Shown one piece after another: positions 47,260 to 62,871 of a stretch of DNA of 64,000 nucleotides. Positions within the stretch are counted from its first letter, which is position 1. Every line of letters starts with the position of its first letter. Source of the DNA: a virus; IMG/VR virus record IMGVR_UViG_3300009702_000018, positions 39,046-103,045 of that record; one strand, written 5' to 3'. Both the position numbers and the translations under genes were made by a program. The notes beneath the pieces are model-generated. The model did not search any database. It was not told the DNA's origin and was given only the letters and a program-made list of their open reading frames with translations.

Positions 47260-47497
47260 ATTAAAGAGAAAAGATAAAGGAGAAGTATATTTTGAAATTG
47301 GGAAAGTATATTTTAAAGGAAATATACAAAATAAGATTTTTACTTTAAACAAAATAAGTATGGATTTTTTCAATTATTCCTGTCCCGAAATCGAATTATA
47401 TTCAGCATACCTTAAAAAGATTATAGACAAAAAAAGGTTGATGATACCATCTGAACAGAAATTGCTTAAGGAAAAAGGAATAATATATGAAAGTTAA
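47249..47497 (+). CDS. family A small beta protein, copy 1
   Basis: ATG 47249 (82 residues) is preferred over 47237 because AGGAAG precedes it and the family begins MKI[RK]L. Family plan: MKI-L, VYFEIGKVYFKGNIQNKIFT, SCPEIELYSAYLKKIIDKKR, MIPSEQKLLKEKGIIYE. The 11-nt overlap with the next gene (TATGAAAGTTAA) encodes its YES* end and the next MKV start. Confidence 0.7.
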   Translation: MKIKLKRKDKGEVYFEIGKVYFKGNIQNKIFTLNKISMDFFNYSCPEIELYSAYLKKIIDKKRLMIPSEQKLLKEKGIIYES

Positions 47498-47747
47498 ATT
47501 AGAACCGATGAAACAAAAAGTCTATTTCACGATTGGAACAGATCGTTTTGGAGGAATATTAAAACATAGAATTTTCTATTTAAAGGAAATTGTTTTAGTG
47601 AAAAGTTATGTTATCCCCTATCCTCGCATTGAATTAAATTCATTTAATATAACCAAAGTTGTAGATAGAGAAAGAATGATGCTATCTTCTGGTGTTCAAC
47701 AACTCGAAATAGAAGGAATAGAATATGCATATAAGCTTAGGAAATAA
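47487..47747 (+). CDS. family A small beta protein, copy 2
   Basis: The product has 86 residues: VYFTIGTDRFGGILKHRIFY, then LKEIV; PRIELNSFNITKVVDRERMM; GIEYAYKLRK. Here the usual YEN* stop is lost (TATGCATATAAGC), extending the C-terminus by a few residues and giving a 23-nt overlap with the next gene, an informative exception to the array rule. Confidence 0.7.
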   Translation: MKVKLEPMKQKVYFTIGTDRFGGILKHRIFYLKEIVLVKSYVIPYPRIELNSFNITKVVDRERMMLSSGVQQLEIEGIEYAYKLRK

Positions 47748-47970
47748 GGAACGAGAAGTATATTTTTATATTCTGGATTATAAATTTAAGGGAACTATAC
47801 GAAATAAAGTTTTCACCTTAAAAAAGGTATTACCTAGTAATGTTCCTTTATCTTGTCCCAAAATAGAATTAAGTACCGAATATATAACAAAGGTTATAGA
47901 TAAGGAAGTAATAATGGTGTTATTTGAACGCAATGTTGTCAGAACAAAAGGAATAATATATGAAAATTAG
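47725..47970 (+). CDS. family A small beta protein, copy 3
   Basis: The product has 81 residues: MHISLGNKEREVYFYILDYK, FKGTIRNKVFTLKKVL, LSCPKIELSTEYITKVIDKE, GIIYEN. This is close to the family consensus. Overlaps both neighbours. Confidence 0.7.
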   Translation: MHISLGNKEREVYFYILDYKFKGTIRNKVFTLKKVLPSNVPLSCPKIELSTEYITKVIDKEVIMVLFERNVVRTKGIIYEN

Positions 47971-48208
47971 ATTAGGAAAAGAAGAAAAGGAAGAAGAAGT
48001 ATATTTTCTTTTGGAGGGTTATTTTTTTAGAGGAACTTTGAAAGATGAAATTTTTACCATAAAAGATGTTCTTATCGGCACTTATCCAAAATCTTCTGAC
48101 CTCGTTGTAGATCCATTCTCTTTAGAAAAGGTTATAGATAAGGAAACAAGATTATCTCCTCTTGAACGCCGAATACTTGTAGGGAATGGAGTAGAATATG
48201 AGAATTAA
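47960..48208 (+). CDS. family A small beta protein, copy 4
   Basis: The product has 82 residues: MKIRLGKEEKEEEVYFLLEG, FFRGTLKDEIFTIKDVL, VIDKETRLSPLERRIL, GVEYEN. The Cys/Pro motif is lost (KSSDLVVD). The bases after its end could start a further copy (MRIKITLNNA*, from 48198), which stops inside the next promoter. Confidence 0.7.
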   Translation: MKIRLGKEEKEEEVYFLLEGYFFRGTLKDEIFTIKDVLIGTYPKSSDLVVDPFSLEKVIDKETRLSPLERRILVGNGVEYEN

Positions 48209-48226
48209 AATTACCTTAAATAATGC

Positions 48227-48255
48227 TTGACAATCCAAGCATAATTGTCGATATT
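48227..48255 (+). promoter_or_regulatory. early promoter 7
   Basis: TTGACA (48227-48232), 17 bp, GATATT, TGTCGATATTATA extension; preceded by the ACCTTAAATAATGC upstream element seen at other copies. Confidence 0.85.
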
Positions 48256-48306
48256 ATAAACGTGCAATAATAGTGTTGCATAAAACCCATAAACGGGAGT
48301 TTAACA

Positions 48307-48864
48307 ATGTTTTATGAAAGCGAACAATTATCAGGCAGCATTTATACATTTGAAATCAAATGTGAAAAATGCAGAAAGGTATTTTCGGGAACAGTAGAAA
48401 TCCCATATAAGGACTTCTATTGTAAATCAGCAAGAGAAATAAGGAACTCGTTGAAAGAGGACATCGAAAAAGTCTACAACAAACATTCTAAAAAATGCAA
48501 AGGAAAGTTAAAAAAGGTTAAAAAAATTGTCCCAATCAAAAAGTTAGTGGAGCTATCAGAAAAAGATATTGCTAAAATAATGAAAATGAAACCGGTCAAG
48601 AAGATTGTCCCAACAAGTAATTATCAGGAACTTATTTCTGATATTGAGTTTAAGAATTTTAAGCTCGGTCGCTGGGGCAATATCTCTTATAATGATGAAA
48701 GAGAAACAACGGAATTCATTTATCCCGAATTAGCAATGCGATTTGCGGAGCTTAAAAATGTCCCAATCACAACAACGGCGGGGGAAGAGTTTCTTGAAAT
48801 GTCAGAGGAAATTCGAGCAAATAAAAAGAGAAAAGAAAAGTATATAAGGAGTGCTTTGAGGTAA
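48307..48864 (+). CDS. Cys-containing Lys-rich protein, unknown
   Basis: The product has 185 residues, GGGAG ribosome site. FEIKCEKCRKVFSGTVE with later Cys (YCKS; KKCKGK) may form a zinc knuckle at residues 19-66. Then two 'KKIVP' Lys/Val repeats (KKVKKIVPIKK; PVKKIVPTSNYQ) and an acidic C-terminal helix. Possibly nucleic-acid binding. No family recognised. Confidence 0.65.
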   Translation: MFYESEQLSGSIYTFEIKCEKCRKVFSGTVEIPYKDFYCKSAREIRNSLKEDIEKVYNKHSKKCKGKLKKVKKIVPIKKLVELSEKDIAKIMKMKPVKKIVPTSNYQELISDIEFKNFKLGRWGNISYNDERETTEFIYPELAMRFAELKNVPITTTAGEEFLEMSEEIRANKKRKEKYIRSALR

Positions 48865-48883
48865 AAATTTGTTGTTCGTGTAA

Positions 48884-48942
48884 CTCCCTAAAACAAACGA
48901 GGTGAGCTTTGATGCTTATCTCGTTTGTGAAAAATAAGGGAG
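48884..48942 (+). terminator. nested hairpin after 48307-48864 (possible terminator or leader structure)
   Basis: The inner stem ACAAACGAG / CTCGTTTGT (48893-48901 with 48920-48928) sits inside an outer CTCCCT / AGGGAG pair. No T run, so termination is uncertain; it may act on 48965-49342. Confidence 0.4.
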
Positions 48943-48964
48943 GTAATCGTAAAGGAGAAATAAA

Positions 48965-49342
48965 ATGGAGATAAATCTCACTAATCAAACGGACATAAAA
49001 TATTGCGAAGATAAAGATATGAACCAATATTTTTATTCTAAAAAATATGATATAATGCTATACAAAAGTAATCTGATATGGTATCTAATAAGTTTAGAAA
49101 GTTTTCCTCATCCTCAACTTATTGAAAAAAAATATCCAGAGGGAATGATGATTGTATGGCAACATAATGTATCTGATGCCATTTCTTTTTCAGAACAAAG
49201 AGACTTTTTTAAGGAATTGAGTAAAGAATATGGTGTAAGAATAGGAGTAATGGATCTTGATAAAAAATACAATAAGATTACAGCATTTACCAAATATGAA
49301 TGGGGCAAAGAAATAGATACCGATGTCGAGGTCAATAAATGA
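48965..49342 (+). CDS. outlying family B protein
   Basis: The product has 125 residues, AAAGGAG ribosome site. MEINLTNQTDIKYCEDKDMN, YFYSKKYDIMLYKSNLIWYL and DFFKELSKEYGVRIG line up by eye with the family B array at 59.7-62.9 kb (MKIxLxNKxKSDIxFF; SPKYxIDIYR; FLKELYxxYxIxGE). It is a diverged, displaced member 10 kb away from the array. Confidence 0.65.
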   Translation: MEINLTNQTDIKYCEDKDMNQYFYSKKYDIMLYKSNLIWYLISLESFPHPQLIEKKYPEGMMIVWQHNVSDAISFSEQRDFFKELSKEYGVRIGVMDLDKKYNKITAFTKYEWGKEIDTDVEVNK

Positions 49343-49452
49343 GAAAAACAAATAAGGAATATAAAAAGCAAGAGATTTGGTTAAGTAATTTTTCTAACTT
49401 GTTCTCATATAATCGGTTAGAAAAAACTGGGATAGGAAGTCAATATATATGA
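49339..49452 (+). CDS. possible 37-residue protein
   Basis: An ATGA overlap with the previous stop starts a short frame (MRKTNKEYKKQEIWLSNFSN and 17 more). No homologue is known to me, and it might be a chance frame. The remaining 100 bases before 49555 hold TTGACA-like words but no clear promoter. Confidence 0.3.
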   Translation: MRKTNKEYKKQEIWLSNFSNLFSYNRLEKTGIGSQYI

Positions 49453-49554
49453 TTAGGTCATATAAAGTGTTAAACAATAAGAGGTTAAGAAAATGTCGTT
49501 TGTCCGTTTTATAAGATTGACACAAGACATATCACCTCACAAAAGGAGTCCCCT

Positions 49555-49818
49555 ATGAACGCAATCGAGAAAATGATAAAGGAGAAAAAAGAAAGAACAA
49601 AAAAACTACATAGGAATCTAACAACATACCTTCACGAAGTAATATTGTCAAATGTGGATAGTGAAATCATTGCAGATGAAATTATAGTTTTGGTTCTTGA
49701 TTCATTATTTGAAATATACGATGTGGATAAAAACAAAGTTAATACCTCACATTGGGAAAATGAACTTCTGGACTCAATATCTGAAATAATAGATAAAATT
49801 AAAACCAGCAGAAAATAG
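49555..49818 (+). CDS. small helical early protein (family C)
   Basis: The product has 87 residues, AAAGGAG ribosome site. KERTKKLHRNLTTYLHEVIL, SEIIADEIIVLVLDSLFEIY and a final acidic helix fit family C. It is co-transcribed with 49828-50139. Confidence 0.68.
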   Translation: MNAIEKMIKEKKERTKKLHRNLTTYLHEVILSNVDSEIIADEIIVLVLDSLFEIYDVDKNKVNTSHWENELLDSISEIIDKIKTSRK

Positions 49819-49827
49819 GAGTATATT

Positions 49828-50139
49828 ATGAAAGATTCAGTAACCAGACGACAAAAAGAACTAACAGAACATCTTCGGATATTAAAAAATAAAACCTCAA
49901 ATCATAGAGGGGAAAGGCTTTTTGACGAAGATATTGCTCGGTCAATTGAAAATGTGGTTCTCGATGAAATACTTTTAACCAAAAATGCTATATTTAATGT
50001 TTTTGAAAATAATGATGGAAAAACTATCAAAAATACGGAAATAAAATTGATAGAATTTCTCTCTGGTGTCTTTGACAAAATTGACAACAAAAGGTATTTA
50101 AACTATTCTTATTTTATAAATAAGGAATTATGGAATTAA
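49828..50139 (+). CDS. small helical early protein (family C)
   Basis: The product has 103 residues, AGGAG ribosome site. RRQKELTEHLRILKNKTSNH, DEDIARSIENVVLDEILLTK and KIKLIEFLSGVFDKID-type C-terminal helix; nearest to 45435-45677. It has an extra aromatic tail (YLNYSYFINKELWN). Confidence 0.68.
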   Translation: MKDSVTRRQKELTEHLRILKNKTSNHRGERLFDEDIARSIENVVLDEILLTKNAIFNVFENNDGKTIKNTEIKLIEFLSGVFDKIDNKRYLNYSYFINKELWN

Positions 50140-50169
50140 AAATAATGATGAAACAACCTCAAATAGTGC

Positions 50170-50198
50170 TTGACAAACCGAGTAAATATGTCGATATT
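50170..50198 (+). promoter_or_regulatory. early promoter 8
   Basis: TTGACA (50170-50175), 17 bp, GATATT with TGTCGATATTATA; downstream about 20 bp are nearly the same as at 48256-48275. Confidence 0.85.
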
Positions 50199-50252
50199 AT
50201 AAACGTGCAATAATAATGTTACACACAAACAACAAAGCAAAGGAGAAAAACT

Positions 50253-50528
50253 ATGAAAGTAGTTGAAATCTCAAACCAAAAGTCAGTCTGCAATATCATT
50301 AAAAAATTGCATCATTTGGATGACAATGTATTTGTTCTTGAATCTCCCCCAGAAGATATTCCTGATAATTTGCTGACAAAAGTCGGGGATGGTATCTTTT
50401 CAGAAATGTGGAGCATAAAACATATCAGTTTCAATAAAATTCCTGTGTTCGCTAAAAAATTCAAACTCGGATATAAATATTATACAGATGCGAAATATAT
50501 TATTTCCATCATTGCTCATAATGTTTAA
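50253..50528 (+). CDS. small early protein, unknown
   Basis: The product has 91 residues, AAAGGAG ribosome site: KVVEISNQKSVCNIIKKLHH, LESPPEDIPDNLLTKVGDGI, GYKYYTDAKYIISIIAHNV. Mixed alpha/beta. It is not a member of families A-C and no motif is recognised. Confidence 0.65.
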   Translation: MKVVEISNQKSVCNIIKKLHHLDDNVFVLESPPEDIPDNLLTKVGDGIFSEMWSIKHISFNKIPVFAKKFKLGYKYYTDAKYIISIIAHNV

Positions 50529-50553
50529 TATCTTGGAGAAAAAGGAATAAATT

Positions 50554-50805
50554 ATGATAGTTAGATTAAAAGAAAGAGGTCGAGAAGCATATTTCAGTAT
50601 GGAGGGCTTTTACTTTAAAGGAGTTATAGAAAATAAAATTTTTACCATAACTCGTATAATGTCAACAAAGACCAATATGACTTGTCCTCATATTTTTTTA
50701 GATAGACGAATTGTAAGAAAAGTTGTGGATAAACATAGATTTATAACATACTCATCGACCTTAAAACATAATCTTTCAATATGTGGAATAGAATATGAGA
50801 ATTAA
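50554..50805 (+). CDS. family A small beta protein, solitary copy
   Basis: The product has 83 residues: MIVRLKERGREAYFSMEGFY, FKGVIENKIFTITRIM, TCPHIFLDRRIVRKVVDKHR, GIEYEN. Separate from both arrays, and followed by a start-like ATGAGAATTAAA that runs straight into the next promoter, as at the end of array 1. Confidence 0.68.
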   Translation: MIVRLKERGREAYFSMEGFYFKGVIENKIFTITRIMSTKTNMTCPHIFLDRRIVRKVVDKHRFITYSSTLKHNLSICGIEYEN

Positions 50806-50823
50806 AAATGCCTTAAAAAAAAC

Positions 50824-50851
50824 TTGACAATCCTGACAAAATGATTATATT
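50824..50851 (+). promoter_or_regulatory. early promoter 9
   Basis: TTGACA (50824-50829), 16 bp, TATATT. It lacks the TGTCGATATTAT extension. Preceded by CCTTAAAAAAAAC. Confidence 0.75.
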
Positions 50852-50897
50852 AAATTGCATAAATACGAACAACGAACAAATAATGAAAGGACAAAAA

Positions 50898-51071
50898 ATG
50901 CACGAAACAAAAGACAAATTGGAAGAACTTAAAAGAGAATATTCAAAAGCTCTTAAGGAAGCAGAAGACATTCCTGAAAAATTTGAATATCTTGCATCAT
51001 TAGAAATGGCAATATATGAATTGGAATCTTCTCTGAACGAACTCATAATTTTAAGAGGAGAAAAAATATGA
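50898..51071 (+). CDS. small coiled-coil protein heading array 2
   Basis: The start is ATG 50898 (57 residues) behind AAAGG; the frame from 50841 begins inside the promoter. KDKLEELKREYSKALKEAED then IYELESSLNELI is a coiled coil. It overlaps the next gene by ATGA. Confidence 0.6.
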   Translation: MHETKDKLEELKREYSKALKEAEDIPEKFEYLASLEMAIYELESSLNELIILRGEKI

Positions 51072-51322
51072 AAAATCAATCAGACCAAAACAAATTTGAA
51101 ATTCAGGAAGCGTTTTTTGACCTCGGGAATTTACATTTTAAGGGAACAATAAAAGACAAAATTTTTATTCTGGAAAAAATAATACTCAATTTTATCCTCT
51201 TATCAATCCCCAAAATTGAATTAAACCAATTGTATATAAATAAGATTATAGATAAGAAAAAGTTAATGGTAAAACATGAACGACAAACTATAAAAGACAG
51301 AGGAATAGAATATGAAAACTAA
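51068..51322 (+). CDS. family A small beta protein (array 2, copy 1)
   Basis: The product has 84 residues: FFDLGNLHFKGTIKDKIFIL, IPKIELNQLYINKIIDKKKL, GIEYEN. The N-terminus is about 6 residues longer than its relatives. 11-nt overlap with the next copy. Confidence 0.7.
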   Translation: MKNQSDQNKFEIQEAFFDLGNLHFKGTIKDKIFILEKIILNFILLSIPKIELNQLYINKIIDKKKLMVKHERQTIKDRGIEYEN

Positions 51323-51539
51323 ATTAAAGGAAACAAAAGAAAAAGATTGTTATGTAGATGGATTTATACGGAAAAAGGTTCTTACTTTAAAGGAAGTTGT
51401 ATTTCTCGTTCCTGATCCAAAGTTCCATTCACACGAGATAAGTCGATTTGAAATAATTAAGGTTATAGACAAAGAACACAGATTGCCATTAATTGCTCAA
51501 GATATTCTCAAAGAAAAAGGAATAAAATATGAAAATTAA
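51312..51539 (+). CDS. family A protein, shortened copy (array 2, copy 2)
   Basis: The product has 75 residues. The second strand pair (usual VYFxI-FKG) is missing: KTKLKETKEKDCYVDGFIRK, KVLTLKEVV, FEIIKVIDKEHRL, GIKYEN. Deletion relative to siblings; probably still translated, as overlaps are kept. Confidence 0.65.
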   Translation: MKTKLKETKEKDCYVDGFIRKKVLTLKEVVFLVPDPKFHSHEISRFEIIKVIDKEHRLPLIAQDILKEKGIKYEN

Positions 51540-51771
51540 ATTAGATACAGCAAAAAAGGACGTATATTTTTCCATTAAAGAGTATAAGTTTAAAGGAGTT
51601 TTAGAAAACAGAATTTTCACCTTATTAAATGTATTAAAAGTTATTCCTGTTAATTACTCCCCCGTTGAATTGGACCAATTTTATATAACAAAGATTGTGG
51701 ATAAGAGACAAATGATGATAACGAAAGAACGACTTCTTCTTGGAAAGAAAGGGATAGTATATGAAAATTAG
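51529..51771 (+). CDS. family A small beta protein (array 2, copy 3)
   Basis: The product has 80 residues: VYFSIKEYKFKGVLENRIFT, SPVELDQFYITKIVDKRQMM, GIVYEN. Follows the family consensus; 11-nt overlaps at both ends. Confidence 0.7.
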   Translation: MKIKLDTAKKDVYFSIKEYKFKGVLENRIFTLLNVLKVIPVNYSPVELDQFYITKIVDKRQMMITKERLLLGKKGIVYEN

Positions 51772-52006
51772 GTTAGACAAAGAAGAAGAACCGAGACATT
51801 TTGGGATAAGCGGTATTTATTTCGAGGGAGTCATACGGAGCGGGATTTTTACTGTGCAAAAAGTAGTATTTGACCGTAGACGATTATCCTGCCCTTCAAT
51901 CGAATTAAATAAACCATACATAATGAAAATTATAGATAGAGGAAGAAAGCTATTGTCGTATGAAAAGAAATTTATTAAAAGAAGAGGCATAGAATATATA
52001 GATTGA
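51761..52006 (+). CDS. family A small beta protein (array 2, copy 4)
   Basis: The product has 81 residues: MKIRLDKEEEPRHFGISGIY, FEGVIRSGIFTVQKVV, SCPSIELNKPYIMKIIDRGR, GIEYID. This last copy ends YID* and overlaps no further gene, as expected if YEN* is dictated by the next start codon. Confidence 0.7.
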   Translation: MKIRLDKEEEPRHFGISGIYFEGVIRSGIFTVQKVVFDRRRLSCPSIELNKPYIMKIIDRGRKLLSYEKKFIKRRGIEYID

Positions 52007-52478: not shown

Positions 52479-52507
52479 TTGACAAACCTTAAACGATTTA
52501 TTATATT
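52479..52507 (+). promoter_or_regulatory. early promoter 10
   Basis: TTGACA (52479-52484), 17 bp, TATATT (52502-52507). The start codon of the next gene begins only 6 bp after the -10, so its transcript would be leaderless. Confidence 0.8.
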
Positions 52508-54030: not shown

Positions 54031-54335
54031 TTATTCACCTAAACAAAGATTGGTTAGATAGAATAGAATTATGTTGGACTCACTATGAAAGTAATTCTAA
54101 AATACATATAAAGATAGATGGTAAAGAATTATGTCTATCTTATAATCCTTTCTGTTGTATAAATAACCAAGAATCACGGTTGTTAAATATAATGAGATTT
54201 CAACTTCGTTCCTCTTATTTATGTAAACATTGTAGAAAGAAACTGGAGAATAAATATATATCCGTTGAGATACTTTCATCTCTCGCCGAAAAAAAATTAA
54301 ATATCCTCGAAAAATGCTTGACAAACCATATATGA
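54027..54335 (+). CDS. small Cys-rich protein overlapping the ubiquitin-operon promoter
   Basis: The product has 102 residues: HLNKDWLDRIELCWTHYESN, NPFCCINNQESRLL, YLCKHCRKKLENK. Possible single zinc site, like 53310-53618. Its last 18 bases overlap the next promoter. Confidence 0.6.
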   Translation: MIIHLNKDWLDRIELCWTHYESNSKIHIKIDGKELCLSYNPFCCINNQESRLLNIMRFQLRSSYLCKHCRKKLENKYISVEILSSLAEKKLNILEKCLTNHI

Positions 54336-54346
54336 TTATGTATATT
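54318..54346 (+). promoter_or_regulatory. promoter of the ubiquitin-like operon
   Basis: TTGACA (54318-54323), 17 bp, TATATT (54341-54346). Preceded by the TCGAAAAATGC upstream element. It lies inside the end of the previous gene and 48 bp before the ubiquitin-like start. Confidence 0.8.
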
Positions 54347-54393
54347 ATGTTTGCAACTAAAAAACAAAAACCCTTAATTAAAGGAGAAATCAA

Positions 54394-54612
54394 ATGATTT
54401 CTATCAACATCATTAGTGGTGCTAATGAACACAACAATGTATCCGTTAGCAATGGGTATACTGTAGGTGATCTTCGTGAAGACTTTGGGAGTGCTTTCGG
54501 TATCCCATATGGCTCAAACGCTGTTATTGACGGAGTAAATCGTTCTGACGATTATGCTCTTCGTGATGGAGATACCATCACGTTTCAGAAAGAGACTGGA
54601 ACAAAAGCATAG
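54394..54612 (+). CDS. ubiquitin-like beta-grasp modifier
   Basis: The product has 72 residues behind AAAGGAG. The pattern is the beta-grasp fold: strand SINIISG, strand NNVSVSNG, helix TVGDLREDFGSAFG, strand NAVIDG, and the ThiS/MoaD-style end DDYALRDGDTITFQKETGTKA. The C-terminus is a flexible GTKA, close to what I recall of PRTRC protein C / Prok_Ub (GTKG). There is no terminal GG, so the JAMM peptidase may trim it. First gene of the operon; an attenuator follows, implying excess over the enzymes. The call rests on fold and neighbours. Confidence 0.85.
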   Translation: MISINIISGANEHNNVSVSNGYTVGDLREDFGSAFGIPYGSNAVIDGVNRSDDYALRDGDTITFQKETGTKA

Positions 54613-54639
54613 TCTTGTTGTTCCATCAGATTATAACAT

Positions 54640-54669
54640 AAGGGAGAAGAGTCCTTCTCCCTTTCTTTT
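54640..54669 (+). terminator. attenuator/terminator between modifier and enzyme genes
   Basis: A perfect 10-bp stem AAGGGAGAAG / CTTCTCCCTT (54640-54649, 54654-54663), AGTC loop, then TCTTTT. The next ribosome site (AAAGGA) begins 4 bp later. Partial termination here would give more modifier than E2, JAMM and E1. Confidence 0.8.
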
Positions 54670-54683
54670 AAGAAAGGAAAAAA

Positions 54684-55463
54684 ATGAGTGAAATTATTTT
54701 GACCGAGAATACAGCAAAGTTAGTAGAAAGGACTGTGATTCACGAAATCCCGTTAATGGATTTTTTGAACTCTGTTAACAAAAATATTCCACTAATATTT
54801 CCAATATTACCCAATAATATTCGTGGATTTATAAGTGGAGAAGTTACTTCTAACTTGATTATAGAGCAAGCTCCGAGAAAGATAAAATTGAGATTTAGAA
54901 CAACCGAGAATGAAGACAGTGAGGAAGATGATCGGATCTTTAATTTCAATGTATATATGCCGTATATCTATTATAATATCAATATTCAAAATAATCCTGT
55001 TTTGATAAATACTGTCAAAATGGCATTTGCTACAGCACCTGTAACAGACGAAAACTCAATATTGGGAACTATGCCGATGCCCAATATTGATGGCAGTCAA
55101 ACAATTTGCTTAGGAGATATAAATATCAAAGATGATTTACCTCTTCATATGGCAATTTCTGAATTGATTATTAAAATCTTATCGTCTGTTTGGAACTCTG
55201 ATTTATTTGATATAGATGGGATGGAGCCCATTCCATTCTTTAGTAAAGCGATAAAAAAATATGCAAATCATAATAGGTTAAAAGAACAATCTGATGATGA
55301 GGTTGCTAAATATTTAGTTACCCACGATTATAATGCCTTTGTCTCATATTTGTATGCTTGGGATGAAGCCACTCAACATATGAATTTACCTGAATTTATA
55401 AAAGCATTGACTTTTTCTCATACTTTCACTTATGGCAGTTATTTAAGAAGCACAGGAGTATAA
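54684..55463 (+). CDS. E2-like protein (PRTRC protein B / Prok-E2 type)
   Basis: The product has 259 residues. The middle has the E2-like signature LGTMPMPNIDGSQTICLG, with Cys142 placed after a PxPN turn as in prokaryotic E2-like families; the preceding FRTTENEDSEEDDR and YMPYIYYNINIQNN strands fit a UBC core. A C-terminal helical part (DEVAKYLVTHDYNAFVSYLY) follows. It would carry the modifier as a Cys142 thioester. The identity is strengthened by modifier, JAMM and E1 genes in the same operon. Confidence 0.75.
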   Translation: MSEIILTENTAKLVERTVIHEIPLMDFLNSVNKNIPLIFPILPNNIRGFISGEVTSNLIIEQAPRKIKLRFRTTENEDSEEDDRIFNFNVYMPYIYYNINIQNNPVLINTVKMAFATAPVTDENSILGTMPMPNIDGSQTICLGDINIKDDLPLHMAISELIIKILSSVWNSDLFDIDGMEPIPFFSKAIKKYANHNRLKEQSDDEVAKYLVTHDYNAFVSYLYAWDEATQHMNLPEFIKALTFSHTFTYGSYLRSTGV

Positions 55464-55467
55464 TAAA

Positions 55468-55833
55468 ATGAATGATTTCCAAACACTTAAAAATATATTT
55501 CAATATGTCTCTCCTTTGAAGAAAGTTCAAACTTTTCCTACCCCCAAATTCGCAGAGAGAAATATTGGAGTAATAGTCAAAGAAACAGGAAGCCCTATTA
55601 CAAAAAAGAATTTTGAATCAGTAAATTTCATTAGGTCTCAAATTGCAGATTATTATCGGAATAAAGGATACAACAATTCATCTAAACAAGCAGTTGCGGT
55701 CGCTTCAGCATTATTCAGCATACTGGGAGAAAATTCCAATCATATGATAAATCAATTAACTGATAGTTTAAAATTTGACGTAATGGCAAAATCTATCAAG
55801 AACCTACTCGTAATAAAAGGAAGAAGAAAATAA
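55468..55833 (+). CDS. unknown protein of the ubiquitin-like operon
   Basis: The product has 121 residues, AGGAG ribosome site. Basic N-terminus (PLKKVQTFPTPKFAERNIGV), then helices (QAVAVASALFSILGENSNHM; KFDVMAKSIKNLLVIKGRRK). No motif recognised. Between E2 and JAMM, so a substrate, adaptor or partner is plausible. Its stop and the next start overlap (TAATG). Confidence 0.65.
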   Translation: MNDFQTLKNIFQYVSPLKKVQTFPTPKFAERNIGVIVKETGSPITKKNFESVNFIRSQIADYYRNKGYNNSSKQAVAVASALFSILGENSNHMINQLTDSLKFDVMAKSIKNLLVIKGRRK

Positions 55834-56717
55834 TGTCTTTACCTGTATTTTATAAGCTAAAAGATAAATTCTTTGATGTGGCAACAAATCAAGAAGTTGA
55901 TATTAAAGAAGTCAGCTACGGATTTGTTATAAGCAAAAAAGGATTATTTTCAATTCTTGTCTCAAAAGGACATTCTATTATAAGACCTGCAAAAACAGAA
56001 TTGGAACGCTTTGATGAAATAGAAGAAGAAGTAACCTACAATTATCCAAAAGTATCTTATGCTATTTATAGTAAAGCCCTCCAATTCTTCAGAGAAGTAT
56101 ACAAAAAACATCAAAGCGAAGGTGCTTTATTATTAGTCTTAAATAGAACACAGCCCTTAGAGGAACAAGAATATAAAATCTATATTCCGAAGCAACAAGT
56201 AAGCACTGCTGGAGTTGATTATACCGTTGATCATTCTGAATTGGGTAAAGATGAATTTCTGGCAGGGTCAATTCATTCTCATCCTGACTTCGATGCATTT
56301 CAATCGGGTGTGGATGAAGAAGATGAGTTTACTTTTGATGGAGTTCATTTAACATTCGGACATATTCAACAAACTGTTCCCGACATTCACGGAAGAGTTG
56401 TGTTAGCAAGACAATCTTATGAGGCAAAAGATTTGATTGAGATTGCTCCTCCCTCATCAGATACAATCCCAGAAGATTGGATGAAGAAAGTAGAAAAGGA
56501 AACTTACAATGCTATTGTTGGAAATTATATGAATAATTATGGTAATTATGGGTATAATGGATGGGGCGAAGAAATATATCACAATCAGAACCGAAATAAA
56601 AATTCACAACAATATAATTTTTCCTCTAATAGTGTCGAAGAACTAATTGCGGCGATGAAACCTAAAAATCTTGTCAATAATAAGCACACAAAAAAACTAA
56701 AACCTATATTAAAGTAA
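55833..56717 (+). CDS. JAMM/JAB metallopeptidase (deconjugating/processing)
   Basis: The product has 294 residues. The JAMM motif is complete: Glu96 in HQSEGALLLVL, then SIHSHPDFDAFQSGVD with His148, His150, Ser158 and Asp161 (HxHx7Sx2D). A beta-rich N-terminal domain (1-75) resembles the leading part of PRTRC protein A. The C-terminal about 70 residues are Asn/Tyr/Gly-rich and disordered (NYMNNYGNYGYNGWGEE). It should cleave the modifier precursor (to expose its C-terminus) and/or remove it from targets. Confidence 0.9.
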   Translation: MSLPVFYKLKDKFFDVATNQEVDIKEVSYGFVISKKGLFSILVSKGHSIIRPAKTELERFDEIEEEVTYNYPKVSYAIYSKALQFFREVYKKHQSEGALLLVLNRTQPLEEQEYKIYIPKQQVSTAGVDYTVDHSELGKDEFLAGSIHSHPDFDAFQSGVDEEDEFTFDGVHLTFGHIQQTVPDIHGRVVLARQSYEAKDLIEIAPPSSDTIPEDWMKKVEKETYNAIVGNYMNNYGNYGYNGWGEEIYHNQNRNKNSQQYNFSSNSVEELIAAMKPKNLVNNKHTKKLKPILK

Positions 56718-56727
56718 AGGAGACAAA

Positions 56728-57432
56728 ATGAATTTCAAAAATTTTAACAAAATCGTCATAGTTGGAGACGGGGGAGTTGGAAGCAATCTCGTTGTTCCTC
56801 TTATGAAATTTATCAAGACAATGAGAGAGTTAGGTTTCAATAATAAACTTGACCTCTTTATTTGTGATGGAGATGTTGTTGAAAAGAAAAATCTGGCAAG
56901 ACAAGATTTTGTGTTTTCAGATATAAGGAAAAACAAAGCAGAAGCAACGGCATCATATATCGCTTCTTCATTTCCTGTCGAAGATGTAAAGATAATTCCC
57001 GTTTCGGAATATATTAAAGCAAATAATTTGGAGTTCGTAAGCGATGGAACTATTTTATTCGTCGGTGTCGACAACTATATTACAAGAAAAACGATTGAGG
57101 ATAAAATGAAAGAAATTAATGGAGAAATTCTCGCAATCTTCGGAGGGAACGAATATGATGATGGAGATGTAAATGTAGTTCATAAAACAAAAAGTGGGTT
57201 TACCACCCCATTATATTCTAAAAAGCATCCTGAAATAATGAAGAAGGATAGATTCCCAGATGAAATAGGATGTGAAGAAGCGGCACAAACTACTTCTCCT
57301 CAATTGATATTCACAAATATGATGGTAGCTAATTATATGTTGGAAGCGTTTTATGCTTGGGCAACAAATAAAGTGCAATGGCACGAGAAACTATTTGATT
57401 TAAAAACAGGAGCAGTGAGGGTAGTAAAATGA
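56728..57432 (+). CDS. E1/ThiF-type adenylating enzyme
   Basis: The product has 234 residues, AAAGGAG ribosome site. Nucleotide-binding GDGGVGSN (13-20), acidic CDGDVVEKKNLARQDF with Asp47/Asp49, Asn55 and Arg58-Gln59, KNKAEATA, and VGVDNYITR. Candidate catalytic Cys182 in EIGCEEAAQTTSPQ. It would adenylate the modifier's C-terminus and hand it to the E2-like protein. Domain-minimal, like PRTRC ThiF proteins; no extra zinc or rhodanese domains. Confidence 0.92.
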   Translation: MNFKNFNKIVIVGDGGVGSNLVVPLMKFIKTMRELGFNNKLDLFICDGDVVEKKNLARQDFVFSDIRKNKAEATASYIASSFPVEDVKIIPVSEYIKANNLEFVSDGTILFVGVDNYITRKTIEDKMKEINGEILAIFGGNEYDDGDVNVVHKTKSGFTTPLYSKKHPEIMKKDRFPDEIGCEEAAQTTSPQLIFTNMMVANYMLEAFYAWATNKVQWHEKLFDLKTGAVRVVK

Positions 57433-58070
57433 AAGGACAAATTAACATTCAAAAACACAATACAAAAATTCAATTGGACAACTTAAAAACAATAATAGAT
57501 AATGGTATATTTGAACAAGATTATTGGGTATTCAAAAGATTACTCGCCATTATGATGTCGCAAAATCATTATATCTGGAAATTCTTTCACGATGTAACAA
57601 AAGGAGTTGCTCCTAATAAACGAGTAGATATATCAGAAAAGGCTGATTATGCTTCGGATTTTATGAACGCAATGTTTGAATTAACTGGAGCATTAGATAA
57701 TATATTCAAAGAAATAGAAAAGAAATGGACTTCTTTTAATCATCATTCAGAATATAATGGATATTATTCTACTTCTTATCATACCAAAATAACAAATCTA
57801 TTCTATGACGATTTATTTTCTGGAGCATCTAAAGAAGAAAGTCCTTCTTATTATATGAGTCTATTAGGAGATAGTTACTTTGATAAAGAAGTCCATAAAG
57901 AATTATTCAATATATTATTGGATGCAATATGTTCTTTCGATAATATTGCTACAAAATATTGTATGGAAATTGAACCGAGAGAAAGTAAGGAAGATAGATG
58001 GAAATATATAGAAAAAGAAGTCGCAAAAATAAGGAAGCAAAATAAAAAGACATATTTATTATCTTTTTAG
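57429..58070 (+). CDS. unknown helical protein of the ubiquitin-like operon
   Basis: The product has 213 residues, overlapping E1 by ATGA. Long helices (LKTIIDNGIFEQDYWVFKRL; AIMMSQNHYIWKFFHDVTKG; EVHKELFNILLDAICSFDNI) and a Tyr/Ser-rich loop (HHSEYNGYYSTSYHTKI). Possible target-binding or regulatory partner. No homology recognised. Confidence 0.65.
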   Translation: MKGQINIQKHNTKIQLDNLKTIIDNGIFEQDYWVFKRLLAIMMSQNHYIWKFFHDVTKGVAPNKRVDISEKADYASDFMNAMFELTGALDNIFKEIEKKWTSFNHHSEYNGYYSTSYHTKITNLFYDDLFSGASKEESPSYYMSLLGDSYFDKEVHKELFNILLDAICSFDNIATKYCMEIEPRESKEDRWKYIEKEVAKIRKQNKKTYLLSF

Positions 58071-58079
58071 GAAATAAAA

Positions 58080-58751
58080 ATGTTAGATATAATCGAAAAA
58101 AATAAGCCTTTGATAAGAAAAATCGCAACCAGATTATGTAAGCAAAATCAAGATTATACCTATGATGATATTTCGAGAATGACCATTACTTCTCTATATG
58201 AATCTTATTCAAAGGAAAAGAAAATCAATTTCATAGATATATATACTAAAACACTAAATAGGATATTAGAAGAAAAAGGTTTCAAATATATAAATGAAAA
58301 ACCTATTAACATATTATCTAACGAGCCTATTGTAGAAAACCAAAATAAAAAATATTATGACCTCATTAACAAACACTCCATTAAATCTTTGATTGATATG
58401 GCGTTCAAAAATACTAAACTAACTCAGGAAGAAATATTTATTATATCTTTGTCTTTCAATTTGGATACCCCAGATGCATTAAAAGGTGAATATAAAAATA
58501 AATTGGACAATATTGAACCCATATATTATATGAGAAAATTAACCAAAAAAGAAATTGCTAAAATAGCAGGAATGACTCCTTCTCAAGTTGCAAGGATTCA
58601 AAAGAAAGCCCTTATGAAAATGGAACAACATTGTGTTATTGAACCTGCTAAAAAATTTAAACGGCTACTTTTGAAAAATGCAAAAGCTATTAGGAAAGAG
58701 AAGAATCGCAATGTTAAAGCTGGAACAATTCATTGGTCAAAAAAAGATTAA
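58080..58751 (+). CDS. sigma-like factor with region 4 helix-turn-helix
   Basis: The product has 223 residues, AGGAAA ribosome site. The N-terminus (IEKNKPLIRKIATRLCKQNQ; YTYDDISRMTITSLYESYSK) looks like sigma region 2. The C-terminal LTKKEIAKIAGMTPSQVARI then QKKALMKMEQH is a clear region 4-type helix-turn-helix, with a Lys/Arg-rich tail. It may steer host RNA polymerase to a phage promoter class. The gene overlaps ruvB by 41 bp. Confidence 0.7.
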   Translation: MLDIIEKNKPLIRKIATRLCKQNQDYTYDDISRMTITSLYESYSKEKKINFIDIYTKTLNRILEEKGFKYINEKPINILSNEPIVENQNKKYYDLINKHSIKSLIDMAFKNTKLTQEEIFIISLSFNLDTPDALKGEYKNKLDNIEPIYYMRKLTKKEIAKIAGMTPSQVARIQKKALMKMEQHCVIEPAKKFKRLLLKNAKAIRKEKNRNVKAGTIHWSKKD

Positions 58752-59607
58752 ACAGGAATTACAATTTTATATAATCAATTCCAATACTAACAACATTCCC
58801 CTACCCCACACAATATTATATGGAAGTGCGGGATTGGGAAAAACTTCGTTGGTTCATGTTGTAGCAAATGAAACAAGCTCCAATTTAATTGAAAAGACAG
58901 GTAGCGAATTAAATACAAAAATAATTCAGGAAATATTACAAAAAATATATTTTGGTACAATCTTATTTATTGACGAAATACATAATATGCCGACAAAATC
59001 TGCTGAGGTATTGTATACCCCTATGCAAACGATAAATAACCAAATGCTACAACAACAAATTGATAGTTTTGATTTTGAAGGCATATCAATATCTCCTTTT
59101 ACAGTCATAGGAGCAACAACATCTGCAGGCATGTTATTAAAACCTTTCAGAGATAGAATGATATTGGACTTTCATTTTCAATTATATACAAAAGAAGAAT
59201 TGGTTCAAATATTACTGAACAACAAATGTCCTCTCAATATAGCGAAAATGATTGCCGATAGATCAAGGGGAGTTCCTCGTATCGCAGTAAATTTCTTTAT
59301 AAGGATAAGAAATGAATCTATAATTGAAAAATATATTACGGAAGAAAAATGTTTAAAATTTTTTGACAGAATAGGAATTAATAAAGATGGATTCAATGCT
59401 ACTGATAGAATGATATTGGAATACTTATATGAATATAAAGTGGCAAGCGAATCTGAACTCACAAAAACTTTAGGAATAGATTTATTTGATTATAAAAACA
59501 TATATGAACCTTTTTTATTATCAAAGAGAACAATAAAAATTTCCAGTAAGGGCAGACAAATTACAGATAAAGGAATTGAATATTTTGAAGAAAATTTTCA
59601 GGAATAG
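58711..59607 (+). CDS. ruvB: RuvB-like Holliday junction branch-migration ATPase
   Basis: The start is ATG 58711 (298 residues): AGGAAAGAG lies 10 bases before it; the frame from 58678 lacks one. LEQFIGQKKIKQELQFYI is the usual RuvB N-terminus. Walker A is YGSAGLGKTSL, Walker B TILFIDEIHNMPTKSAEVLY, then TVIGATTSAGMLLKPFRDR (sensor 1 and Arg finger area) and RGVPRIAVNF (sensor 2). The C-terminal winged helix is present. RuvA and RuvC were not seen. It acts with RecA in recombination. Confidence 0.92.
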   Translation: MLKLEQFIGQKKIKQELQFYIINSNTNNIPLPHTILYGSAGLGKTSLVHVVANETSSNLIEKTGSELNTKIIQEILQKIYFGTILFIDEIHNMPTKSAEVLYTPMQTINNQMLQQQIDSFDFEGISISPFTVIGATTSAGMLLKPFRDRMILDFHFQLYTKEELVQILLNNKCPLNIAKMIADRSRGVPRIAVNFFIRIRNESIIEKYITEEKCLKFFDRIGINKDGFNATDRMILEYLYEYKVASESELTKTLGIDLFDYKNIYEPFLLSKRTIKISSKGRQITDKGIEYFEENFQE

Positions 59608-59682: not shown

Positions 59683-60015
59683 ATGAAAATTACCTTAAAA
59701 AGAAAAATTTCACACAAAGACTATTTAAAATTTTATATAAACAAAAGCCACTTTGAAATGGGAATAAGCTCTTATAATTTGGATATAGATTTATATATAG
59801 ACAAAGAAAATGAATGGTATATGGCAAAAGCATATATTCCTGATGATGACATCATAGATATTATATCCGATCAAGAATTTCCAACAAGAATAGACATTAA
59901 TTGGTATAATATAGTAAGTATAGAAGAAACAAAAGTAAAGAAATTTACAACAATCTTGGATGAAGAATATGGCATACAACTAATAATTCACCGCAAGACA
60001 GATTTTGATTATTAG
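59683..60015 (+). CDS. family B small protein, array copy 1 (subtype with PDDD)
   Basis: The product has 110 residues: MKITLKRKISHKDYLKFYIN, SSYNLDIDLYIDKENEWYMA, IPDDDIIDIISDQEFP, EEYGIQLIIHRK. With copy 2 it forms a subtype with IPDDDII. It shares the N-terminal strand, '[SY]xxIDIY', and 'L..EYxI..' C-terminal helix-strand with copies 3-10. Confidence 0.65.
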   Translation: MKITLKRKISHKDYLKFYINKSHFEMGISSYNLDIDLYIDKENEWYMAKAYIPDDDIIDIISDQEFPTRIDINWYNIVSIEETKVKKFTTILDEEYGIQLIIHRKTDFDY

Positions 60016-60031
60016 AAAGGATGTTATTAAA

Positions 60032-60379
60032 ATGAAAATTACCTTACAAAGAAAAACGACATACAAGGATGATTTAATATTCTATATGAATAAAAGTAAT
60101 TTTGAAATGGTAATAAGTTCATGTGATTTGGATATAGATTTATATATGAATGATGAATATGAATGGTTTATAGAACACGCATATTATCCTGATGATGACA
60201 TTATCGAAACAATATCCGATAATGATTTTCCAACAACAATCGTTGTTCATTGGTATAATATAGAAGATATGGACGAAGAAGTGATAAAAGAACTAATAGC
60301 AATATTGGATCAAAAATATGGAATAAAAGTAATCATTCATAGCAAGACAGGTTTTTATTCCGCAGAAGGGACATTCTAA
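60032..60379 (+). CDS. family B small protein, array copy 2
   Basis: ATG 60032 (115 residues) is chosen because AGAAAGG precedes it and siblings begin MKIT. It closely resembles copy 1 (KITLQRKTTYKDDLIFYMNK; CDLDIDLYMNDEYEWFIEHA; YPDDDIIETISDNDFPT), showing a recent duplication. Confidence 0.68.
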   Translation: MKITLQRKTTYKDDLIFYMNKSNFEMVISSCDLDIDLYMNDEYEWFIEHAYYPDDDIIETISDNDFPTTIVVHWYNIEDMDEEVIKELIAILDQKYGIKVIIHSKTGFYSAEGTF

Positions 60380-60380
60380 A

Positions 60381-60695
60381 ATGAGAATTAGATTAGGTAA
60401 CAAAACAAAACCAGATATTGTCTTTTTCAGAGATGTATTATATAATCAATATGTTATCCAATCTCGTGATTATGGTATAGATATATATAAAGGATTAGAT
60501 TGGACATCATCAGAACCTTGGGCAGTAAATAATTCTCATGATACCGAAGAAAAATATAAAAAACCACTCGTCCCACAATCTCTTCCTAAAAAAATATTTA
60601 TTAATCCATACGATGAATATAAGGATTTACATTATTTTTTAAGAGAATTATACGAAATTTATCAAATAAAAGTAGAGGTTCAATATGAAGATTAA
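60381..60695 (+). CDS. family B small protein, array copy 3
   Basis: The product has 104 residues: MRIRLGNKTKPDIVFFRDVL, YNQYVIQSRDYGIDIYKGLD, WTSSEPWAVNN, FLRELYEIYQIKVEVQYED. Starts one base after copy 2's stop; overlaps copy 4 by 11 nt (TATGAAGATTAA). Confidence 0.7.
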   Translation: MRIRLGNKTKPDIVFFRDVLYNQYVIQSRDYGIDIYKGLDWTSSEPWAVNNSHDTEEKYKKPLVPQSLPKKIFINPYDEYKDLHYFLRELYEIYQIKVEVQYED

Positions 60696-61005
60696 ATTGG
60701 ATAACTATATAAAATCGGATGCTATATTTTTTAGAGATGCAAATCAGTTGGTAATTCAATCCTCTAAATATAATATAGATATATATAGGATAAATTATTG
60801 GGATAGAACAAAATCTTGGCAGATATGCGAAAAAATAAAAACTCCAATTAATCAAAGAAAAGAATTGGACGCAAAAACAATTTCCTATATTAATGTTTAT
60901 CGACCTCGCACTCTTCAAATTATATCAAGAGAAAAATTGGAGATGTTTTTAAAGGAACTATATAATACTTATAAAATACGAGGAGAAATAATCAATGAAT
61001 ATTAA
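60685..61005 (+). CDS. family B small protein, array copy 4
   Basis: The product has 106 residues: MKIKLDNYIKSDAIFFRDAN, SSKYNIDIYRINYWDRTKSW, MFLKELYNTYKIRGEIINEY. The usual PW is replaced by SW. 11-nt overlap with copy 5. Confidence 0.7.
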   Translation: MKIKLDNYIKSDAIFFRDANQLVIQSSKYNIDIYRINYWDRTKSWQICEKIKTPINQRKELDAKTISYINVYRPRTLQIISREKLEMFLKELYNTYKIRGEIINEY

Positions 61006-61330
61006 ATTGACTAACAAACCAAAATCAGATATTACCTTTTTCTTTGATATGTTATTAAATGAATTTGTTATAAATTCTCCTAAATATAAAATAGATATAT
61101 ATAGAGGCATTGATTGGTCAGAATCAAAGCCTTGGCATGTTTGCAATCAAATGCCCGTTGAATTAAAATATAAAGGAGAATTATATGCAAAAGATATAAG
61201 TTCCTATATTGATATTTTATATACTCACAATGAATTAGTAGTGGAAGATGATTTGGACATGTTTTTGGATGAATTATATCGAAACTATAATATTGAAGGA
61301 GTGCTAACAGATGAAGATTACATTGAATAA
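60995..61330 (+). CDS. family B small protein, array copy 5
   Basis: The product has 111 residues: MNIKLTNKPKSDITFFFDML, SPKYKIDIYRGIDWSESKPW, MFLDELYRNYNIEGVLTDED. 20-nt overlap with copy 6. Confidence 0.7.
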   Translation: MNIKLTNKPKSDITFFFDMLLNEFVINSPKYKIDIYRGIDWSESKPWHVCNQMPVELKYKGELYAKDISSYIDILYTHNELVVEDDLDMFLDELYRNYNIEGVLTDEDYIE

Positions 61331-61634
61331 TAAGGTAAAATCAAATGCTATTTTTTTTGTGGATAGAGCTTATAATAATTTTGTCATTTATTCTCCTAAA
61401 TATGAAATAGAGATATATAGAAATTTAGATTGGAATATGTCAGACCCTTGGATAGCATGTCGCAATATTAAAATTGATGAGGATAATATACTAATTTTTA
61501 CACCACATTTTATTTCCAACGATAGAAATATATTTGTCCGATCTCATATTCCAAAAGAAAAATTACGATATTTTTTACAAGAACTACACGATACCTATAA
61601 TATTGAATATCAAATATATGGAGATAAAAAATGA
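61311..61634 (+). CDS. family B small protein, array copy 6
   Basis: The product has 107 residues: MKITLNNKVKSNAIFFVDRA, SPKYEIEIYRNLDWNMSDPW, YFLQELHDTYNIEYQIYGDK. ATGA junction with copy 7. Confidence 0.7.
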   Translation: MKITLNNKVKSNAIFFVDRAYNNFVIYSPKYEIEIYRNLDWNMSDPWIACRNIKIDEDNILIFTPHFISNDRNIFVRSHIPKEKLRYFLQELHDTYNIEYQIYGDKK

Positions 61635-61951
61635 AAATTATATTAGGGAATCAACCAAAATCAGATATTGTATTTTTTAAAGATACTATATTGGAACAAC
61701 TTGTCATAAACTCACCTAAATATAAATTAGACATATATAGAAATATGGAATGGGAAGAATCAGCCCCTTGGAAAGTAAATATTGCAGGTGTAACTGCTAA
61801 AAAAGATAGAAAACCATTAGACCCAAAATCAATATCCAAACATATATTTATAAAACCTCATTTTTCTAACCATTTAGCTTTTCCCATAGAAAGATTAGAA
61901 AACTTTCTAAAGGACTTATATGAAGATTATCAAATAATAGGAGAAATATAA
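61631..61951 (+). CDS. family B small protein, array copy 7
   Basis: The product has 106 residues: MKIILGNQPKSDIVFFKDTI, SPKYKLDIYRNMEWEESAPW, ENFLKDLYEDYQIIGEI. Closest to the consensus. Confidence 0.7.
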   Translation: MKIILGNQPKSDIVFFKDTILEQLVINSPKYKLDIYRNMEWEESAPWKVNIAGVTAKKDRKPLDPKSISKHIFIKPHFSNHLAFPIERLENFLKDLYEDYQIIGEI

Positions 61952-61952
61952 A

Positions 61953-62261
61953 ATGAAAATAAAATTGGCACAAAAAGCAAAAACAGATATTGTATTTTAT
62001 TTGGAAAAATTGCAAAATCTAATTATTATCTATTCTCCTTCATATGAGATAGTTATGTATAAAGAATTATATAAGGACGAATTATATCCATGGAAGGCAT
62101 ATTCATTCGGTGATATTACTAATATAGGTAAAGAATTATTGACTCCTCGATCAATTCCAAGATACATATATATTAAAGAATATGGTAAATTAAAAAAATT
62201 ACAAGATTTTTTAAAGGAACTATATCTAAATTATCAAATAGTAGGGATAATGGTAAAATGA
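61953..62261 (+). CDS. family B small protein, array copy 8
   Basis: The product has 102 residues: MKIKLAQKAKTDIVFYLEKL, SPSYEIVMYKELYKDELYPW, QDFLKELYLNYQIVGIMVK. Diverged in the middle (IVMYK). Starts one base after copy 7's stop; ATGA overlap with copy 9. Confidence 0.7.
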   Translation: MKIKLAQKAKTDIVFYLEKLQNLIIIYSPSYEIVMYKELYKDELYPWKAYSFGDITNIGKELLTPRSIPRYIYIKEYGKLKKLQDFLKELYLNYQIVGIMVK

Positions 62262-62566
62262 AAATTACATTAGGAAATAAAATAAATATTACCTTTTTTA
62301 TAAATACATTAACAAGAGAAATTATTATCCATTCTGAAAGATACGGAATAAATATATATAGAAAAATAATTTGGCATAGATTAGAACCTTGGGTAGCATA
62401 TCGAGGAAATATCTATATCAACAAAAATATAAAGACAATACATCCATTATTGATTCACAAACATATATTTGTTAAACCATCGTCAGATGATCCATTAAAA
62501 AACTTACCACATTTTTTAAAAGAACTATCTGAACAATATGACATATCAGGAGAAATAATAAAATGA
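62258..62566 (+). CDS. family B small protein, array copy 9
   Basis: The product has 102 residues: MKITLGNKINITFFINTLTR, SERYGINIYRKIIWHRLEPW, HFLKELSEQYDISGEIIK. Shorter linker after the first strand; ATGA overlap with copy 10. Confidence 0.7.
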   Translation: MKITLGNKINITFFINTLTREIIIHSERYGINIYRKIIWHRLEPWVAYRGNIYINKNIKTIHPLLIHKHIFVKPSSDDPLKNLPHFLKELSEQYDISGEIIK

Positions 62567-62871
62567 AGATTACATTAAAGGAAAAGAAACAATCGGATAT
62601 TATATTCCGTATGAATAGGCTACAAAGACGATTTATTATTTATTCAAATAAATATGGAATAATTATACACAGAAATATAAATTGGACAAAATCAAACCCT
62701 TGGATAGCATATCCAGCAAAGAAGATTATTGGAAAAAATATAGAATCATTAAATCCAGAATTAATACATAATCATATATTTATTAAATCCTATGCCTCAT
62801 GGGAGAACAATTTAAAACCTTTTTTACAAGAACTACACAAATACTATCATATCTTAGGAGATTTGGTATAA
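62563..62871 (+). CDS. family B small protein, array copy 10
   Basis: The product has 102 residues: MKITLKEKKQSDIIFRMNRL, SNKYGIIIHRNINWTKSNPW, PFLQELHKYYHILGDLV. Last copy; ends without overlap. Confidence 0.7.
   Translation: MKITLKEKKQSDIIFRMNRLQRRFIIYSNKYGIIIHRNINWTKSNPWIAYPAKKIIGKNIESLNPELIHNHIFIKSYASWENNLKPFLQELHKYYHILGDLV

Follow-up and report, generated by a model that had tools for sequence, protein, structure and literature searches.

A phage-borne gene cassette with the parts of a PRTRC-like, reversible ubiquitin-like conjugation system

The question raised by a 64,000-nucleotide stretch of viral DNA (hereafter the window; bases 39046-103045 of the 103,045-bp IMG/VR virus record IMGVR_UViG_3300009702_000018, which is possibly incomplete) is whether a phage carries an entire ubiquitin-like conjugation pathway of its own, and what such a pathway would tag. 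A sequence-only reading of the window had pointed to one operon encoding a small modifier, an E2-like protein, a JAMM peptidase, a minimal E1 and two further proteins, and its positions for the six open reading frames (ORFs) agree with an ORF check. This cassette is interpreted here, with a probability of about 0.72, as a phage-borne, reversible ubiquitin-like conjugation system related to PRTRC systems and to the type-6d operons described in bacteria by Iyer, Burroughs and Aravind in 2006 (PMC1779556). The interpretation draws on gene content, gene order, homology, intact catalytic residues and recurrence in phages, together with the predicted fold of the modifier.

The cassette and its recognisable parts

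The six ORFs run in one direction and are tightly packed, with two adjacent pairs overlapping by 1 and 4 bases, and the order from 5' to 3' is promoter-like site, modifier, hairpin, E2-like protein, 121-amino-acid (aa) orphan, JAMM peptidase, E1 and 213-aa orphan (Table 1). The same contig encodes a large terminase, a portal and a tape measure protein on its minus strand, and a search of the contig detected no integrase, which bears out the phage setting and identifies a tailed phage. Profiles built from relatives, with the window protein excluded (leave-one-out profiles), were searched against the 364 ORFs of the whole record, and each matched exactly one, the expected cassette ORF, with E-values from 1.3e-42 to 8.6e-9. 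The NCBIfam models PRTRC_ThiF and PRTRC_A provide independent matches, and on both counts the identity of the cassette lies well beyond chance.

The E1-like protein matches the ThiF family (1.9e-15) and, over nearly its full length, PRTRC_ThiF (TIGR03736; E 1.1e-21), at 77 bits against a curated cut-off of 144.75. Its GxGGxG motif, K70, D115 and C182 are invariant in seven aligned sequences, and R58 is present in all except one, consistent with the minimal E1 that had been recognised from GDGGVGSN and Cys182. Searched against the PDB, the E1 family profile finds the catalytic subunits of SUMO, NEDD8 and ubiquitin (Ub) E1s (~4e-10) ahead of ThiF (1.4e-8), and Citrobacter BubCD is also among its matches (1.5e-5). 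The JAMM peptidase matches PRTRC_A (TIGR03735) with an E-value of 4.1e-8 and 33 bits, where the curated cut-off is 101.8. Its catalytic set, E96 and H148-x-H150-x7-S158-x2-D161, is intact and invariant in the family alignment, so that the proposed HxHx7Sx2D motif is joined by the upstream Glu96; the best PDB matches of the family profile are the AMSH and AMSH-LP deubiquitinases (9e-4). All the catalytic residues named beforehand for the E1, E2 and JAMM proteins proved correct and invariant in their families.

The 72-residue modifier is predicted to have the beta-grasp fold that had been proposed, with a free, flexible C-terminal tail. Its AlphaFold (AF2) model (pLDDT 86) displays the bb-a-bbb order of strands and helix followed by a disordered tail, and Foldseek matches it to SUMO, MoaD and ubiquitin at a TM of ~0.7; a Pfam scan of the modifier itself gave nothing over cut-off. 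A beta-grasp protein accompanied by a ThiF-type E1 might instead be a ThiS/MoaD-like sulfur carrier for cofactor or tRNA thiolation, all the more as the modifier has weak ThiS similarity (0.04-0.14) and JAMM proteins occur in sulfur-carrier operons (PMC1779556). Such a role is, however, highly improbable, because an E2 gene with PN-x7-C is present, the modifier lacks a GG end, no sulfur-transfer partner was seen alongside, and the E1 profile stands closer to the SUMO, NEDD8 and Ub E1s than to ThiF. Gene content and the intact active sites place ThiS/MoaD sulfur transfer, TAPI-type tail assembly and the idea of a decayed remnant behind the main reading.

The E2-like protein carries Asn134-x7-Cys142, which fits the E2 signature HPN-x7-C in its RAD6-type form PN-x7-C, and P93, N134 and C142 are invariant in an alignment of 50 sequences. 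Pfam Prok-E2_D recognises 39 of these and PRTRC_B (TIGR03737) recognises 31. The family profile places its PN-x7-C over the HPN-x7-C active site of RAD6/UBE2A/B at E ~0.7-1. The leave-one-out match of this protein needs the 49-sequence set; a five-sequence E2 profile missed it. A UBC fold is likely on the strength of these motifs, and the AF2 model (pLDDT 77) consists of a beta-meander, a Cys loop and then helices.

Some features of the window nevertheless weigh against a working conjugation system. The window E2-like protein matches neither Prok-E2_D nor PRTRC_B, nor any E2 family model, and a Foldseek search with its AF2 model returned no UBC match, so the fold assignment rests on sequence, namely the RAD6-like PN-x7-C and the relatives in Prok-E2_D. 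The sequence WNSDL occupies the place where the conserved His of type-6d E2s is expected; several relatives have FNHDL or NNHDL there, and others have D or N in place of the His. The modifier ends in Ala (GTKA) and not in Gly, while most relatives end in GTKG, GNKG or GSKG, and L050 and L056 in KAA (L numbers designate the analysed loci). The Ala end is compatible with function, since the related Cap2 systems act on proteins whose last residue is either Gly or Ala and do conjugate those with Ala (PMC10097602).

Comparison with PRTRC systems was based on NCBIfam TIGR03735/03736/03737 and on Aromatoleum aromaticum EbN1 plasmid 1 (L074) and Methylomonas pFW12EY (L009). The Ub-like C, E2-like B, JAMM A and ThiF components, their order (C..B-A-ThiF) and their catalytic residues correspond to those of the window, whereas the PRTRC modifier ends in GTKG, and the window cassette adds the 121- and 213-aa orphans, is phage-borne and has an E1 from a phage-only clade. 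Neither ParB_N nor PRTRC_D (TIGR03739) found a match at E<=1 in the contig, which may be incomplete, and no NCBIfam match to PRTRC E/F was obtained for the two orphans or the scanned flanking genes, the rest of the contig being unscanned. The cassette is therefore termed PRTRC-like rather than PRTRC, its scores also lying below the curated cut-offs; the composition match noted from the sequence holds for the four parts and their order, but not for ParB or PRTRC_D, and the extra genes are orphans. PRTRC systems are named in annotation pipelines, and we know of no tested function for them. Bil/Bub-type bacterial systems likewise comprise E1, E2, JAMM and a Ub-like protein, but the similarity of the window E1 to them is weak, its E1 and E2 genes are separate and of PRTRC type, and the cassette is phage-borne. 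Like the window, type-6d operons contain separate Ub-like, E2-like, JAB and E1 genes with additional proteins (PMC1779556), and the E2 catalytic Cys is kept in the window (C142, invariant in 50). In contrast, the terminal Gly of the modifier and the absolutely conserved downstream E2 His are not kept, and only bacterial copies, with no phage copy, were listed for type 6d (PMC1779556).

Phage relatives and tandem modifier genes

A DNA-pattern scan of IMG/VR, based on the E1 alignment, yielded 61 loci, including some near-duplicate contigs, and profile searches of their ORFs detected an E2 in 55, a JAMM in 50 and both in 46 of the 61. Cassette-bearing phage contigs reach 340 kb, and the cultured carriers are Salmonella phage Arash, Vibrio phage D69 and Bacillus phage KLEB27-3, with close E1 matches to D69 in D148 and D181. 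A complete phage cassette is present as first described, but many other phages carry copies, and it is not a singular find. IMG/VR scans for close relatives with the window E1 and terminase found nothing. In the E1 tree the window belongs to a phage-only clade (100/99) with L010, L011, L012 and L015, separate from the plasmid PRTRC clade (100/99), and orphans of 76 and 98 aa fill the position between E2 and JAMM in L010 and L012.

Many loci encode a free small GxKG-ending protein upstream of the E2, and in others a Ub-like domain is fused to the N-terminus of the JAMM protein. In Arash, the likely modifier gene (L071 107-307; 66 aa, ending in GTKG) lies in a frame that differs from that of the annotated gp251c. 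At L068 6314-6535 and L069 6773-6982, a small GG-ending protein precedes an E1-like gene and E2 and JAMM were not found; this is a different small system, apart from the E1-E2-JAMM cassettes.

Several relatives encode the modifier as head-to-tail copies: four in KLEB27-3, three in D69, five in L057, and two each in L026-type loci, L048, L065 and L067. In L004 (KLEB27-3), L026, L065 and L067, the proportion of synonymous differences between adjacent copies (pS) is 0.51-0.89, and that of nonsynonymous differences (pN) 0.00-0.07, so that the closest pairs approach saturation at synonymous sites with hardly any change in the protein; the copies of L057 and L048 diverge more (pN 0.06-0.34). The conserved GxKG ends and a pN far below pS indicate strong purifying selection on the mature protein, and sequence thus argues strongly for a functional mature modifier in phages. 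Several precursors carry residues beyond the last GxKG (INYSK in D69, ND in L048), which JAMM would need to trim. The arrangement resembles eukaryotic polyubiquitin, in that L004, L026, L065, L067, L057 and L072 encode head-to-tail modifiers each ending in GxKG and most close copy pairs have protein identity far above DNA identity; it differs in that the window modifier is single-copy and that cleavage of the relatives' precursors by JAMM is presumed.

Because individual cassette genes are already annotated in KLEB27-3, the parts had been noticed before, but not the system. Literature searches, confined to open-access sources, found no description of phage-borne E1/E2/JAMM sets or of phage polyubiquitin-like precursors. 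The kind of cassette is already known from type 6d and PRTRC; its phage-borne copies form a recurrent family of putative tagging cassettes that has hardly been studied.

Proposed reactions, candidate substrates and rival roles

If the cassette operates as its homologies suggest, the E1-like protein would adenylate the GTKA C-terminus of the modifier and hold the modifier on Cys182, from which it would be transferred to Cys142 of the E2-like protein. Asn134 would then stabilise the attack by an amine of the target, most likely a lysine, and the JAMM peptidase would take the modifier off again; in relatives, JAMM may also trim precursors and cut tandem poly-modifiers. The promoter-like site before the modifier gene and the hairpin after it would, if the hairpin is active, supply the modifier in excess over the enzymes. 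The promoter is suggestive only, because promoter-like matches in this AT-rich region (62, against 53.5 in shuffles) show no overall excess, and the same 11/12 hexamer pair is also present at 52479 and 59633.

The sequence-only reading had offered a counter-system, a modifier of virion or host proteins and a tag for the host polymerase as candidate roles. The substrate class may tentatively be sought among the nucleic-acid machines of phage or host, namely RNA polymerase and its sigma factor, or the sliding clamp and replisome. One hint is the sigma region-4 gene that, together with a RuvB-like ATPase gene, comes straight after the cassette in the window. In L011 and L015, the nearest E1 relatives of the window, an RNA polymerase beta' homologue lies at most ~1 kb past a second E1 gene, and modifier-domain proteins in both loci have tail residues past GxKG; this neighbourhood favours nucleic-acid machinery without proving it. 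In plasmids and gut elements, dnaN often adjoins PRTRC-like cassettes (L005, L007, L020, L021, L073, L075, L076 and L080), which makes a link to clamp modification possible. A universal link between cassette and dnaN was rejected, as PF00712 matched in 4 of 50 viral records. Against the proposed substrate class, the window phage has its dnaN on the other strand at a distance of ~23 kb, and except in a few lineages no polymerase or clamp genes lie close to the cassette; RNA polymerase beta' was detected in 11 of 42 records, of which L011 and L015 are the only ones that have it near the cassette. With associations this patchy, inferring the target from neighbourhood is weak. The wider proposition, that many unrelated phages own Ub-like signalling (polyubiquitin-like precursors, GxK[G/A] ends and E1-E2-JAMM sets) which reversibly tags replication and transcription machinery, is doubtful.

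That the cassette tags or processes structural proteins of the phage itself while virions assemble, a role suggested for the Ub-like TAPI/TAPK tail genes of lambda, is unlikely. The Arash E2 and E1 genes are annotated as 'structural protein' and adjoin tail genes, and the Arash virion proteome includes Gp246-Gp249 (PMC10585845). That proteome, however, comprises 116 proteins, including ribonucleotide reductases and RNA ligases, which makes carry-over likely, and GenBank conflicts with the publication over which Arash gene products are structural (PMC10585845). For these reasons (116 proteins and mismatched numbering of gene products), the Arash proteomics was set aside as evidence of a virion role. 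In the window, moreover, the structural genes are far from the cassette and are encoded on the other strand. The TAPI-TAPK pair of lambda and T1 does join a JAB peptidase to a Ub-like protein in a phage, but it is located in the tail operon and has neither E1 nor E2 (PMC1779556).

The enzymes of the cassette are of the same kinds as those of antiphage defence systems, and two possible roles in conflict are suggested by this likeness. The cassette might counter host immunity (e.g. CBASS Cap2/Cap3 or Bil), acting as a decoy or tagging defence proteins; it occupies an early-type, plus-strand site amid arrays of small paralogous genes, and related E1/E2/JAMM proteins serve bacteria in defence against phages (PMC10097602). 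This is nonetheless improbable, since the full E1-E2-JAMM-modifier set, which plasmids and phages from many different hosts have kept, exceeds what a decoy needs, and PADLOC gave the E1-like protein only a weak E1-E2 similarity. Alternatively, it might be a defence carried by the phage against its competitors, tagging incoming virion proteins in a Bil-like manner, and protection against invasive replicons has been speculated by Iyer et al. (PMC1779556). Superinfection exclusion of this sort is rather remote, as PADLOC found no match for the modifier, E2 or JAMM, and type-6d relatives are also found on plasmids, beside replication genes. CBASS Cap2/Cap3 shares E1/E2 conjugation, a JAMM isopeptidase and a C-terminal Gly/Ala on the conjugated protein (PMC10097602); in contrast to the window, Cap2 is an E1-E2 fusion that conjugates a cGAS-like enzyme, without a beta-grasp modifier, in host defence.

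Genomic surroundings and implications

For the 121- and 213-aa orphans, iterated profile searches found no homologue and family scans gave no match. Directly downstream of the cassette are a sigma region-4 gene, possibly in the same operon, and a RuvB-like gene, which confirms the recombination and transcription neighbours described beforehand. A family of ten tandem paralogous genes (102-124 aa) occupies 59683-62871 (+) of the window, with a distant copy at 48965-49342, and a Pfam scan of a single member gave no match; nine genes of ~80 aa at 47237-52006 make up another family. Both families are expanded early-gene arrays. Elsewhere in the phage, a 417-aa protein resembles alanyl-tRNA synthetase (L002 2259-3512; PF01411, 4e-164), and a 599-aa protein (window 23097-24896, minus strand) has N-terminal HNH endonuclease similarity (residues ~14-99) followed by phage DNA methyltransferase-family similarity.

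Table 1. Positions of the cassette features, of other genes of the phage and of modifier loci in relatives (window coordinates unless a locus is named).
Feature	Position	Strand	Remarks
Promoter-like site TTGACA-17-TATATT	54318..54346	+	11/12 sigma-70 match; upstream of modifier
Ubiquitin-like modifier, 72 aa, PRTRC-C-like	54394..54612	+	leave-one-out 8.6e-9
Terminator-like hairpin	54640..54663	+	stem of 10 bp with T-rich tail; separates modifier gene from E2 gene; fold z-score -2.2
E2-like protein, 259 aa	54684..55463	+	leave-one-out 1.1e-14
Orphan, 121 aa	55468..55833	+	between E2 and JAMM
JAMM peptidase, 294 aa, PRTRC-A-like	55833..56717	+	leave-one-out 3.2e-24
E1-like adenylating enzyme, 234 aa, PRTRC-ThiF-like	56728..57432	+	leave-one-out 1.3e-42
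Orphan, 213 aa	57429..58070	+	4-base overlap with E1 stop
Sigma-70 region-4-containing protein	58080..58751	+	Sigma70_r4 4.5e-6; 9 bases past cassette
RuvB-like AAA+ ATPase	58678..59607	+	RuvB_N 2.4e-32; overlaps sigma-like gene
DnaN clamp	30859-31956	-	bacterial-type
DNA polymerase III alpha	L003 4183-7191		bacterial-type; left part of record
DnaG primase	L003 8647-9657		bacterial-type; left part of record
DnaB helicase	L002 11567-12838		bacterial-type; left part of record
Second E1-like gene; modifier domain inside longer protein; RNA polymerase beta'	L011 7610-8239, 9051-9905, 10468-13176		
Same arrangement as L011	L015 7682-8203, 8255-9118, 10033-14064		RNA polymerase beta' with intein
Tandem modifier gene	L004 712-1419		KLEB27-3
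Tandem modifier gene	L026 2348-2770		
Tandem modifier gene	L065 3248-3637		
Tandem modifier gene	L067 3176-3616		
Tandem modifier gene	L072 6394-7185		
Tandem modifier gene	L057 2601-3707		

The presence of Lys in GTKG and GTKA predicts that trypsin would cut after it, so that the target lysine would keep a single residue, Gly or Ala. As a Gly remnant (+57.02) has the mass of the carbamidomethyl that the usual alkylation adds, ordinary proteomics would probably miss or mislabel it, diGly antibodies would be blind to it, and the modification, whether Gly or Ala, could escape routine proteomics. Cultivable phages together with these remnants make the tagged target and the purpose of the tag directly testable. 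If the clamp or RNA polymerase and its sigma factor were indeed tagged by phages, viruses would have their own counterpart of PCNA ubiquitylation. What is known of ubiquitin-like conjugation in bacteria concerns mainly the defence of the host against phages; here, phages of many lineages carry the genes for the whole pathway, and bacterial viruses may regulate proteins through reversible tags in a manner resembling that of complex cells.

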